DNA of 64,000 nucleotides from Protonemura montana (lineage: Eukaryota > Arthropoda > Insecta > Plecoptera > Nemouridae), in NCBI GenBank assembly GCA_947568835.1, contig OX387612.1:8246001-8310000 (forward strand). The letters are read 5' to 3'. Below the pieces are notes generated by a model that saw nothing but the letters and a program-made list of their open reading frames with translations, was not told the DNA's origin and did not search any database. Numbering within the stretch: the first letter of the stretch is position 1; each line of letters opens with the position of its first letter. This document shows, piece after piece, positions 1,020-49,929 of the stretch. Position numbers and translations under genes: made by a program.

Positions 1020-39996
<38,977 letters not shown>

Positions 39997-40114
39997 GATG
40001 AGAGCACGCCCGGCGGACATTTTGGGAAGCTCGCCACTGCAGGTAAGAATTTTATTTTGTTTACGATATGAGAACCTCTTCTTAAAATACCTGAACACAT
40101 AGCTGAATTATAAC

Positions 40115-40385
40115 ATAAACCCAGAAGAGCAAAGGTGAAGTCTACTAGTTAGAATGGCCGACCACACGGCTGTCTTGCAACATTACCCATAAGAGCAATG
40201 GTGAAGTCCACCAGCTAGAATGGCCGACCACACAGCTGTCTTGCAACATTAACCCATAAGATCAATGGTGAAGTCCACCAGTTAGAATGGCCGACCACAC
40301 AGCTGTCTTGCAACATTACCCATAAGAGCAATGGTGAAGTCCACCAGCTAGAATGGCCGACCACACAGCTGCTTTACAACATATA
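40115..40385. repeat. 66-bp minisatellite, intron 5 (4 units)
   Basis: AGAATGGCCGACCACAC recurs at 40151, 40217, 40284 and 40350 (period 66-67), with GCAATGGTGAAGTCCACCAG between. It lies about 75 bases after the exon 5 donor. Confidence 0.9.
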
Positions 40386-40629
40386 CACGAAATTACATCT
40401 ATTTCAAACGTTCAATTGTAGCAATCTTACCTAGTTGTGATAGTCTATCGTATTTTAAACTAGTAAAGTTTTTTTTAACTATGAATTTACTGGTTACATC
40501 AAAAGTTTCCCGTCGAATAGGGTCAACTGCTGAGCTTAATAAGCTAAGCAAGCAAATCTAGAGCCATATTACCTGAAATGCGGTATCCACTGCAACTTTT
40601 CCAAAATAGTTACACACTTTGCTTCCTAG

Positions 40630-40985
40630 GTGACTTGTTGCTGGAATACGGCTTCGGCAACATGGCCGCCACAAACAAAGATGGCGTCGGCTGTTTCAAC
40701 ATGGCCGCTTCCACGTCGCCGGGCAACAGCTATTTCAATGTCGGCAAAGAAAGTGTCAACTATTTCAACCTTTCGGCGAAAGACGGCAACTACTTCAAAG
40801 ATGCCGCCAACCTCGGTTGCCATGCCGACGGCAACAACAAAGACGGTGTCGGTTGTTTCAACATGGCAGCTTCCAATAATAAAGATGGCGGCACCGAAGA
40901 GACGAGAGATAGTGGAAACGACGACCGCGACTCGAAATGTAGCGCTAGTAGTAGTGTCGTCACCAACGTACAAGACGTGCAATAG
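40630..40985 (+). CDS. Candidate Pitx exon 6: alternative or readthrough C-terminus
   Basis: The acceptor CTTCCTAG ends at 40629. A phase-1 junction from exon 5 or exon 4 reads G-DLLLEYGFGNMAATNKDG and stays open for 118 codons, ending DVQ and TAG at 40983-40985. The peptide is rich in Asn, Phe, Gly and Asp, with recurring YFN/CFN and NMAAS motifs, and has an acidic Ser-rich tail. It matches no family I know. Coding is supported by codon choice and by a 13-codon duplication (40674-40712 and 40836-40874) in which all four differences are synonymous. Linked to exon 5 it needs readthrough of TGA (133 added residues). Linked directly to exon 4 it gives a 366-residue form without OAR. The other possibility is that it is merely 3' UTR; both other + and - frames here are also open because of base composition. 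Confidence 0.5.
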
Positions 40986-41867
40986 TAGTTTTTAAATTCG
41001 GCCGCTCTGGAGACTGTGTTTTTTTAAATTATTTATTTCATCTCGGGTCTAGGTTAGGTCAGGTCAAATCGTTTGATTTGAGCTTTGGGTATTTTTAGGT
41101 TAGGTCAGAGAACCAGCGTTAATTTTAAACTGCATTTGCAGAAAATATTTAACGATGAACTAAACTATACCTACCAAAATCTAAGTTGCTATCAGGTGGA
41201 GTTACGATTCAGTTTAGTAGTAAGAAATGTAATTTTGCTATTTCTTGCAGATCATTTTATGTTTAAATGATCTGTATTGAGCTAACCCAAACGACTTATT
41301 AATGCATTTTTAGTTATTTTGAGCAGCTAGCTTTTAATATTACTAGAGTTTTGTTAAGAAGGATGGTCACAAATGCCATTTGGTGGTCACAACCGTTACC
41401 ACTTTATGTCGCCTCTTTTGCTCAACATAACGCTTCATATTGGCACTGGGACTCTTACTTAACCTATAAATCCAATGATTTAGGCTATCGGATATCAAAC
41501 TTCACGATTAACTTGTGTATTTGTAGGATATGCCACTAGTAATATCGGCCATTATTTCAACAAAGATGTTTGATCGGCCATTTCAACTTACGGTTTTCGT
41601 CCTGAACGCACTGCATTTGTAGATCTCTCGCATATTTGAGATCTAATCGTTTTCAAAATGAGATATAAAAACACGCTCTATCAGTGAAACCCCTACTTTT
41701 AGCTACATAATCTTAGCTAAATAATAGTACAGTTGATAATAAAAATAAATAAGTACTATTACTAACTTACTGAATAATAATACCTAATCGATGTCAAATC
41801 ACGTACTACGTAGTCGACTACAGCTGAAACATTTAGGGTTAAGATTTTCTAGAAAACAGTCTTAATA

Positions 41868-41901
<34 letters not shown>

Positions 41902-42375
41902 ATGTCGCTAATTATTCAAAAGTTTGTATGTATCGGTGATTGTTATATGAATACTTGATGTTCTTAAGTTCCTACCGTAGCATGGACAGTCATAGAACTT
42001 AGCGTCGTGAAGCTAGTCACTTGTTTAGCTAATCTTTCCAGTGCCACGTGGACTATCAAAGTCCCGCCAAAACAAACATTTCAAGTCAAAAATCGAGCAG
42101 TGACGCATGCTGTACCAAAGCTTATTTCAAATAACCTGGATAGCGGTTGCCGTACAGAAACTTTGAAGCCAAGTCCGCCATCTTGAGAGTCTCTGATTTC
42201 GAGTTCTCTCAAAGTGCCGTGCTACTTGCAATGTTTTCATCGGTAGTTGTCAATGTTTTCATAGTTTTCATCACCCTAATGGTCAAAATTAGTTGAAAAT
42301 GTGTTTAAAAAATTAAAAAATGTGCATTATCATAGTGACACCTTGCATTTAGGGACTGCTACCTGTTGCCAACAA
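40986..42375 (+). other. Pitx 3' UTR and downstream flank
   Basis: After the exon 6 stop the sequence becomes AT-rich. A repeat of the GCCATC family (see 10555-10800) lies at about 41335-41530. Overlapping AATAAA hexamers at 41738-41749 are the nearest polyadenylation signals I see, although a repeat lies between them and the stop. An (ATT)n run is at 41868-41901. A single direct-orientation unit of the 41-bp minisatellite lies near 42120-42145. Confidence 0.35.
41738..41749 (+). terminator. Candidate polyadenylation signal
   Basis: Two overlapping AATAAA hexamers, about 750 bases after the exon 6 stop. They lie beyond an inserted repeat, so they may not be the site used. Confidence 0.2.
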
Positions 42376-42757
42376 TGGATTTTCAATTTTAACTGGCTGG
42401 GTCCTATGCTCTATCCTGGTTATTTGAGATCAGCTGGCTGGGTTCTATGCTCTATCCTGGTTATTTGAGATCAGCTGGCTGGATCCTATGCTCTATCCAG
42501 GTTATTTGAAATCAGCTGGCTGGATCCTATACTCTATCCAGGTTATTTGAGATCAGCTGACTGGATCCTATGCTCTATCCAGGTTATTTGAGATCAGCTG
42601 GCTGGATCCTATGCTCTATCCAGGTTATTTGAAATCAGCTGGCTGGATCCTATACTCTATCCAGGTTATTTGAGATCAGCTGACTGGATCCTATGCTCTA
42701 TCCAGGTTATTTGAGATCAGCTGACTGGATCCTATGCTCTATCCAGGTTATTCGAGA
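42376..42757. repeat. 41-bp minisatellite, inverted partner (about 9 units)
   Basis: Units such as CTGGCTGGATCCTATGCTCT and ATCCAGGTTATTTGAGATCA are the reverse complement of the intron 4 unit. The flank CTACCTGTTGCCAACAATGG just before it is also the reverse complement of the flank just after the intron 4 array (38490-38510). Confidence 0.95.
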
Positions 42758-46650: not shown

Positions 46651-47592
46651 ACTCTGCCCCAGTGAAACTTTCACGTGATCGACTGAGCATGTGACTCTGC
46701 CCAGTGCAACTTTCACGTGTTCGACTGGGCATGTGACTCTGTCCCAGTGCAACTTTCACGTGTTTGACTGGGCATGTGACTCTGTCCCAGTGCAACTTTC
46801 ACGTGTTCGACTGGGCATTTGACTCTGTCCCAGTGCAACTTTCACGTGTTCGACTGGGCATGTGACTCTGTCCCAGTGCAACTATCACGTGTTCGACTGG
46901 GCATGTGACTCTGTCCCAGTGCAACTTTCACGTGTTCAACTGGGCATGTGACTCTGTCCCAGTGCAACTTTCACGTGTTCGACTGGGCATGTGACTTTGC
47001 TCCAGTACAACTTTCACGTGTTCGACTGGGCATGTGACTCTGCCCCAGTGCAACTTTCACGTGTTCGACTGGGCATGCGACTCTGTCCCAGTGCAACTTT
47101 CACGTGTTCGACTGGGCATTTGACTCTGTCCCAGTGCAACTTTCACGTGTTCGACTGGGCATGTGACTCTGTCCCAGTGCAACTATCACGTGTTCGACTG
47201 GGCATGTGACTTTGCTCCAGTACAACTTTCACGTGTTCGACTGGGCATGTGACTCTGCCCCAGTGCAACTTTCACGTGTTCGACTGGGCATGCGACTCTG
47301 TCCCAGTGCAACTTTCACGTGTTCGACTGGGCATGTGACTCTGTCCCAGTGCAACTTTCACGTGTTCGACTGGGCATGCGACTCTGTCCCAGTGCAACTT
47401 TCACGTGTTCGACTGGGCATGTGACTCTGCCCCAGTGCAACTTTCACGTGTTCGACTTGGCATGTGACTCTGTCCCAGTGCAACTTTCACGTGTTCGACT
47501 GGGCATGTGACTCGGCCCCAGTGCAACTTTCACGTGTTCGACTGGGCATGTGACTCTGTCCCAGTGCAACTTTCACGTGTTCGACTGGCAGA
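46651..47592. repeat. 43-bp minisatellite with a CACGTG in every unit (about 22 units)
   Basis: Unit: CGACTGGGCATGTGACTCTG, TCCCAGTGCAACTTTCACGT, GTT. Each unit has the palindromic E-box CACGTG and a second E-box-like CATGTG. CCCAGT and ACTGGG form inverted arms around the CACGTG. Variation between units is low. Confidence 0.95.
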
Positions 47593-49929
47593 GTTGCTCG
47601 CTCTCGGGTCACTCCCGGTGCACTTTTCTTGCTCCGAGAATTTCGGCGGTTGAATTGGAAATCAAACTATCAGCTAGTGATCACGTGTTCGGGTGGGAGC
47701 GCTCTCGCTCGGAGCTGGTGCACACCAGGCAATCATCATGACGCCATCGAGCATGTTTTAAGCCCGCAGTCAACAACGCCCCTATACTCCAAAAATGTAA
47801 TTGTCAATCTTCCATCACACCATCGATAATCCCATGTTATTGGATAGAATTGAGCAAAGCCACTTAGCTACCTGCAGTAACACGCCAACAGGTACATTTC
47901 AAAAGGTTGCAATATATTTCTAACCTAAATCGAACTGAAACATACTGTGATTGTATTTTCCGTGCAAATACGAGATAAACTCTTGAGGGTAAAACTGATA
48001 AAATCACGTGCTGCAAATTGTTTCAAGTTACAAAACAAGTGTTTGTTTTGATTTACTTTTGTATTCAGCAGATATTTTGTCAAAACGCCAGATGTCCAAT
48101 TTATTGTCGATGTTAATGTAATTATTCGCAAGCGTTACTCCCTTATTTCATGTCAGGTGGAATGGGCAGCATGGAACTTGATTTTTTACTGTAATATTTT
48201 ATTTCTTCCTTTACACTTAAAAAATATCAACTAAATTTGTAATTAATAATTCAAATTAACATTTAATTTTAACCAAACAAAATTTAAAGAATTCCATTCA
48301 TTGTTGTACGTTGGTTAGTGTTCGGTTTCTGAACCACTGCGTTTTTTAGTAAAATCGATTTTTCCCAATACAAGTTTCCCGAAAATATGCACCATACCTT
48401 AAAAGAGATGCTATGGCCCGACGATACGAGTGCAGACGCTTGCTTAAAATGGCTTAAGACAAGACGTCGAGTGTCTGTAGGGGTTTTATTTGTGAACAGA
48501 AAATACTTTAATACTAGCGATGAGGGCGATGAGAGGCGCTCCACCCAAATATCAAGAAAAAAAAAATAAGCTGTGTACATATTCAACGCATCTTGGACAG
48601 CGTTCCTAAAATTTCTGAAAATTTAGATTGAAATGGTAACTCCTGGATGTTTAAAAATGTTATTGGAGACTCAAAGTGAACCACTTATTTTAATTTTGGT
48701 TGCGTAACAGTTTTTCAAGTATTGAAAAATAATTTAGTTTAATTTAGTCTTTGGTGGGAAGGCCCTGACTTAATATTGTAACAAATTTGTTGATTTGACA
48801 AAGACTCGGACAAAATCTCTTGACGAAGATGAAAGTCGTGGAAAACTACACTAATTAAGTTATGACTGGTTGTTGAAAGTCGTGATTAGAGCAAATCTGT
48901 GTGCATGGCTTCCTTCTCACGTGTTTCTGGGTCAATAATAAAATTCTAAAAAATAGTTCTTTAGGAAATTTGTGGAAAACTCGGAAAAACTAACTTTTTG
49001 TTGTCGCCTTCGGTTTTCCGAGAAGTAGGTAATAGAGTTGAGTAATTGGCAATTTTTTCGCAGGAAAATTGTAGAAACATTCAGTTTTTTCGACTGATGA
49101 TTTCTATTTGAAGCCAAAAATATAAAATCAATTTGCTAAAAAAAAAAACAGTCGTACGAATTCGAAGCCAAACAAATGACAACAAAACGACAGTTCACAC
49201 TGACAGCTGGCATTCGCATTTCGTGACAGACTGCAGAAATAAAATGCTGGATTGCTTGTCAAATAACCTCATTCACACTGCAATTAGATACCGAGCCTAA
49301 TTGAAACAATGTCAACGTGTTCTTGTCAGCAATTAATAAAGCCTACTTGATACGTATTTACATTTAGAATTAGCAAAACTTCCACCTCCAAAACGTAAGC
49401 AAACAGAAGAGATTGTAAGTTTATTTGCTCGTCTGATTACTATTTTAATCTCGTTCTGTTAAACTGTCGACATTACCGGACGTGTCCGATTCTCGCCGGC
49501 CGCACCCGAGTGGTGATTCGCGATGACGACACGTGCTGCCACCTGTAAGCGACTTTTTCAAACTAAAGGTCGGATAGAAGACTGTAGTTCGAGTTTTCGT
49601 TCGCGGTATTCAATACAGGTGGCGCTAGTAAAAACATTACTGTCTTTAAACCTACAGTACAATCTGAAAAAGTTGTTGGTGTTTTAAATGTTCGTTTCTT
49701 CGCGATAAAAGGTCATAAGATTTAAATTTGGAAGATTCTATGGTCAGTTTTACCGACATTTTCAACTATAAGTTGCCTGTGATTGGAAGTCGCCATGGCA
49801 ATAGTTTCAAATAACACACTAACCAAGAGTTAAGATTAAAACAAAAAAAAAGTAGACTCAAGGGAGCTTACTAGCTATCAATTTATTGCAACATGCATAT
49901 TGTTTCAGTATATATCAATAAGTGGTTTA
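47593..49929. other. Unassigned downstream sequence
   Basis: A GC-richer edge (47593-47760) holds one more CACGTG. The remainder is AT-rich except for a unique block at 49440-49640. No gene or repeat recognised. Confidence 0.3.

Follow-up and report, generated by a model that had tools for sequence, protein, structure and literature searches.

A candidate sixth coding exon behind the canonical stop codon of Pitx in Protonemura montana

The Pitx (Ptx1) gene of Protonemura montana appears to own a sixth exon, which lies behind the codon at which its protein would be expected to end. The gene is located on the + strand of a 64,000-nt stretch of contig OX387612.1, which is here called the window; positions are counted within this window, and all features of the gene lie on its + strand. 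From 40630 to 40985 a frame of 118 residues bears a coding signature, observed in this one genome. The first-pass annotation had taken the frame for a sixth Pitx exon that gives the protein a new C-terminus. A coding-looking, phase-matched terminal exon is indeed there. It is, however, no simple lengthening, as an in-frame TGA in exon 5 (39994-39996), which had been overlooked, intervenes ahead of the exon 5 donor. Translation of a normally spliced 4-5-6 mRNA stops at this TGA, and the tail can therefore be made only if ribosomes read through it, if exon 5 is skipped and the OAR motif lost with it, or if exon 6 has a start of its own. We slightly favour readthrough over the other routes. That exon 6 is a real coding terminal exon of Pitx, reached by UGA readthrough in a 4-5-6 mRNA, is a tentative reading, to which we give not quite even credence.

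By sequence comparison, the paired-like homeodomain of the gene is closest to PITX among solved structures. The joined 61-residue domain from exons 2 and 3 finds PITX2 chains as its best solved relatives (2l7f, E 7.2e-34), the next being aristaless with an E of 4.5e-22. Its K50 is what we take to be the Pitx hallmark, and the end of the gene product, ...SACQYA..., presumably matches the Pitx ending. Exon 2 (25997-26259) encodes an N-terminal linker and the first part of the homeodomain and closes with the donor GTTCGG/GTGAGT (the slash marks the junction; score 6.79); its 5' boundary was placed by eye rather than by score, and the mapping begins with this exon. A homeobox match at 26125-26262 of the window (8272125-8272262 of the contig) overlaps it. 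Exon 3 (36765-36947; acceptor 8.03, donor 6.86) supplies the remaining homeodomain and ends with ...NNWASK and a donor of phase 0. Exon 4 (37692-37815; acceptor 6.68, donor 6.53) has a donor of phase 1. Exon 5 (39746-40042) is 297 nt long and has phase 1 at both ends. It contains the OAR motif (PF03826, E 1.6e-8, 34.5 bits against a Pfam cut-off of 20.1), the canonical C-terminus, the TGA, 15 further open codons plus one base, and the donor CAG/GTAAGA. All splice-site scores use generic weights and not weights trained on P. montana. Ordinary Pitx proteins terminate just past the OAR region, and the exon 5 TGA presumably sits where they normally end.

The candidate readthrough stop stands in the context GCC-TGA-GAT, and the Pitx frame ends with it at 39996. 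Only 46 nt separate its end from the exon 5 donor at 40042. This donor scores 7.06, which places it in the top 0.14% of the 3622 GTs of the window. The 15 open codons in between (DESTPGGHFGKLATA, 39997-40041) are followed by base 40042 as the first base of a split Gly codon. Intron 5 (40043-40629, 587 nt) has neither AATAAA nor ATTAAA over its whole length; it holds one variant AGTAAA at 40462 and a tandem repeat. Since the intron lacks these signals, exon 6 probably ends the transcript; and since, in addition, the exon 5 donor is the sole donor scoring at least 4 within 39746-41000, the expected mRNA would join exons 4, 5 and 6. The 3' end of such a transcript is likely marked by a pair of AATAAA at 41738 and 41744 (41738-41749). 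A further AATAAA is found at 40878, within the exon 6 frame.

The coding part of exon 6 starts, as the first-pass annotation had it, exactly at a 3' splice site, ...CACTTTGCTTCCTAG/GTGAC, with 40630 as the first exon base. Its frame begins GDLLLEYGFGNMAAT and ends NVQDVQ before the TAG at 40983-40985, directly behind which stands a second TAG. The first of the 118 residues, Gly, is split with the upstream exon, and with the split codon the frame is written G/DLLLEYGFGNMAAT...NVQDVQ. The phase is 1 (G/GT GAC TTG...), the same as that of the donors at 37815 and 40042; the earlier statement on phase was correct, too. Within 39700-40985 only this acceptor and that of exon 5 score at least 3. From its sequence the site is usable, though 1.7% of all AGs in the window (3438) reach its score or better, and all three other scored acceptors of the gene are stronger. 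No donor of at least 4 follows between the acceptor and 41000, and exon 6 would therefore be terminal.

That the frame is open is weak evidence for coding, because the stretch is free of stops in three of its six frames: the exon 6 frame, the +1 frame and one antisense frame. Judged by its codons, the exon 6 frame looks translated. Its period-3 signal amounts to 14.5, and none of 1211 overlapping non-exon control windows reaches this value (maximum 6.7). The coding score is 27.8 bits in frame, and none of the other five frames exceeds 6.2; again, 0 of the 1211 overlapping control windows come up to it, the highest having 19.6 bits. Synonymous codon preference alone makes up 21.2 bits, as opposed to 10.5 or less in other frames. 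The gap between the best and the second-best frame is less special, as 12 of the 1211 control windows show one as large. The codon score was trained within the same genome on 34 stop-to-stop homeobox/OAR frames (7216 codons, some flanking intron included), to the exclusion of L018 with its internal stop, the Pitx loci L009, L010 and L046, the tRNA loci L033-L040 and the loci after L046; with training and test taken from one genome, it is no stand-in for comparative evidence.

Internal repeats add to the picture. In 19 of 19 self-alignments of exon 6 scoring at least 7 the offset is divisible by 3, and the same holds for 14/14 and 26/30 when the top ones are counted. Among 242 control windows, none had 14/14 in frame, one had 13/14 (start 11001) and one 12/14 (start 1001). 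Because of the former, in-frame offsets alone are not unique to exon 6. No tandem repeat is called in the control window at 11001, the own best self-alignment of which scores 34, and it counts as a plain control result against exon 6.

More specific is what happens between close copies. A 40-nt repeat occurs at 40674-40713 (NKDGVGCFNMAAS) and again at 40836-40875, 162 nt or 54 codons apart. The copies differ at four sites, and all four are synonymous third positions in the exon 6 frame, about 0.003 being expected for random changes. Among the three stop-free frames, the differences are synonymous in the exon 6 frame only; an antisense frame with 8 stops likewise leaves the sites that differ between the close copies synonymous. 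In a second short repeat pair, 3/3 differing sites are synonymous. The pattern is limited to close copies: more distant self-alignments differ at first and second positions as well, and in a looser pairing of 40655-40690 at offset 39 no fewer than 16 of 17 differences are non-synonymous.

The exon 6 peptide had been called rich in Asn and Phe. For Asn (13.6%) this is true; Phe, with 5.1%, ranks below Gly (12.7%), Asp (10.2%) and Ser (10.2%). The other features that had been described are there: NMAAS/NMAAT and CFN/YFN/YFK recur, the (C/Y)F(N/K) motif being present five times, and the end is rich in Asp, Glu and Ser, the last 38 residues including 8 acidic and 4 basic ones. Nor could the peptide be placed in a known family, since it has no Pfam match at E <= 1; its best PDB match has an E of only 0.93. 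Single-sequence AlphaFold yields a mean pLDDT of 34, with 118 of 118 residues under 50; this agrees with disorder, although a prediction made without an alignment proves little. The tail is probably disordered, with a composition rich in Asn, Gly, Asp and Ser and with recurring (C/Y)FN motifs.

A motif CFNxAxSTS of exon 6 (GCFNMAASTS) resembles the end of exon 4, with an E of 0.002 in a single BLASTP comparison, and 3 of 2000 shuffles were as good. This likeness suggests that both exons belong to one polypeptide. At the DNA level 1 of 600 shuffles did equally well; the DNA likeness is not unique, as out of 511 window segments it is reached by two, exon 4 itself and, with a higher score, the segment at 7317. 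Exon 6 was found once in the 258-Mb genome of 34 contigs, by a search that passes over very common words and scores its best candidates only; no tandem array is called there. An origin from a transposon or repeat is therefore unsupported. Scans of viral and prokaryote contigs revealed no relative either.

Tandem repeats are found in the vicinity of the exon. Intron 5 contains a 66-nt repeat in about 4 copies (40096-40383). An array of 49-nt units, about 20 copies long, occupies 38716-39696 and ends 50 nt before exon 5. Another one, with 41-nt units, runs from 42393 to 42700, where the stretch scanned ends. At 46800-47588 about 18 copies of a 43-nt unit yield overlapping open frames (LCPSATFTCSTGHVTL...); by its sequence this array is a minisatellite and not a gene, and it may extend beyond 46800-48000, the range scanned. 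Elsewhere in the genome, a tRNA-Sec gene is located at 1500-1585 of locus L033, unlike in several insect orders, which are said to have lost selenoproteins. Two homeoboxes (L013 and L014), presumably of the engrailed/invected type, are oppositely oriented on contig C11, with about 14 kb between them, and the Hox homeodomains we take to be of the arthropod type.

Of course, the coding signature and the route to exon 6 can be read in other ways. The exon might be untranslated, as part of a 3' UTR or a decayed repeat, and its open frame and periodicity might be by-products of GC-rich repeats. Two further frames over the stretch are open, after all, and growth of repeats in units of 3 nt can mimic in-frame offsets, as the control windows at 11001 and 1001 illustrate. 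The synonymous differences between the close copies, the codon preference, by far the highest in the exon 6 frame, the single match in the genomic DNA search and the absence of a called tandem array all argue against this explanation, which we regard as improbable. Quite improbable, too, is that exon 6 is an open reading frame of its own, translated from the ATG at 40662 into 107 residues, by reinitiation or from another transcript, and never fused to Pitx. The in-frame ATGs at 40662, 40701 and 40863 all stand in the context CAAC-ATG-G, which resembles the insect start consensus, but this context is repeated because it is inside the NMAA repeat. Moreover, the exon 6 frame agrees with the phases of Pitx, the CFN motif is common to exons 4 and 6, and an out-of-frame ATG is found at 39998, just behind the Pitx stop. 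A special decoding of the TGA, as selenocysteine or after A-to-I editing of UGA to UGG, seems very improbable indeed. The tRNA-Sec gene (74.6 bits, above the cut-off; identified by ARAGORN as tRNA-SeC with the anticodon tca) implies that selenoprotein synthesis is possible. Against selenocysteine, no SECIS family is detected in 39700-42600 (Rfam, E <= 10), where the sole match is a sub-threshold snoRNA, and we know of no redox centre at this position of a homeodomain protein.

The serious competitor is exon skipping. Exon 4 might be spliced straight to exon 6, which would produce a Pitx without the OAR motif and the canonical end but with the 118-residue tail, and no recoding would be required. 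This is possible, if somewhat doubtful. Exon 5 with its 297 nt and phase 1 at both ends can be left out without loss of frame, the acceptor of exon 6 is usable, and a leaky stop becomes unnecessary. As to the context, the stop is a UGA, but the following base is G, not the favoured C, and no unusually stable RNA fold is seen after the stop (z 0.25 for the genomic and -0.59 for the spliced sequence). The 15 post-stop codons are uninformative; that they show no preference for their frame (3.9 bits in frame versus 5.5 in +1) also counts against readthrough. Skipping, in turn, has left no direct trace in the genomic sequence. As no donor of the region other than that of exon 5 scores at least 4, the 4-5-6 mRNA is likely common as well, and the phase by which the exon 5 donor keeps exon 6 in frame would then be due to chance (1 in 3). 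By phase, skipping accounts for exon 6 equally well. Exon 5 being 297 nt long, phase cannot separate the two, and each makes the phase match of the other a 1-in-3 coincidence. In favour of readthrough, the strong donor lies just past the stop, and its phase allows the frame to run on through the TGA into exon 6. Insects read through many stops. PMC5100048 reports that candidate readthrough stops of Drosophila and mosquito are preferentially TGA, gives 353 candidates for Anopheles and puts the share of such stops followed by C, the favoured base, at 49-63%, depending on the candidate group. A stable RNA structure behind the stop is, according to published work, predicted in 9% of candidates and is not required of the class. 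Among fly transcription factors, about 10% (75/703) are predicted readthrough cases in a part of PMC8417969. On the other side, Jungreis et al. state in a section of PMC5100048 that a splice junction inside a second ORF, with a noncoding part before the junction, is generally assigned to alternative splicing.

If readthrough is the correct explanation, the main mRNA would be spliced 4-5-6, so that exon 6 would follow the canonical TGA in frame, with 46 nt between the end of this stop and the 5-6 junction. The majority of ribosomes would terminate at the TGA and release ordinary Pitx. In some, a near-cognate tRNA would decode the UGA, and the protein would grow by 134 residues, of which one stands for the stop, 15 come from exon 5 and 118 from exon 6. 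Behind the OAR motif, this tail might influence partner binding or transcriptional activity; the disordered extension of Vvl/Drifter offers an analogy for a possible tuning of the latter. That the UGA at the conserved Pitx end is regulated, and that readthrough across the splice junction retains the OAR motif and appends a disordered tail of (C/Y)FN repeats, 134 residues long and in part related to the end of exon 4, we propose more guardedly still.

Pitx factors take part in patterning the animal body; of the OAR region it is said that it restrains activity in relatives. If expressed, exon 6 would provide Pitx with a second product, a longer Pitx if the stop is leaky or one that lacks OAR if exon 5 is skipped. 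Readthrough, if true, would amount to a translational switch on a developmental regulator, the C-terminus of which was thought to be fixed. The case also shows where annotation could lose exons, namely behind a stop codon.

The gene resembles Pitx/Ptx1 proteins in its Pitx-like K50 homeodomain, its OAR motif and its ...SACQYA... end. It differs in that known Pitx proteins end just after the OAR region, whereas here another exon that looks coding follows, 118 residues long. In the literature searched, no paper was found that joins Ptx1 to stop codon readthrough, nor one that treats Ptx1, readthrough and Drosophila together; those that contain both Pitx and stop codon readthrough are off topic, judging from their titles. 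The main text of PMC5100048 does not mention Ptx or Pitx. Ptx1 and Pitx are absent from the main text of PMC3840789, Ptx1 from that of PMC4528330, and Ptx from those of PMC8417969 and PMC13170385; outside these main texts, a fly Ptx1 case may be listed. With the readthrough candidates of Drosophila and Anopheles, as described in sections of PMC5100048, Pitx shares an in-frame coding signature behind UGA. Those candidates, however, rest on alignments of 20-21 species, whereas the Pitx case comes from one genome, with a G after the stop and a second ORF split by a junction. Drosophila Vvl/Drifter, as portrayed in parts of PMC8417969 and PMC13170385, provides the other comparison. The dfr gene is intronless and its stop is UAG, whereas Pitx, a candidate for readthrough, has an intron 46 nt past its UGA. 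The likeness lies in the kind of protein: Vvl/Drifter, too, is a developmental factor, of the POU/Oct type, that acquires a long, disordered and repeat-rich C-terminal extension behind its normal stop.
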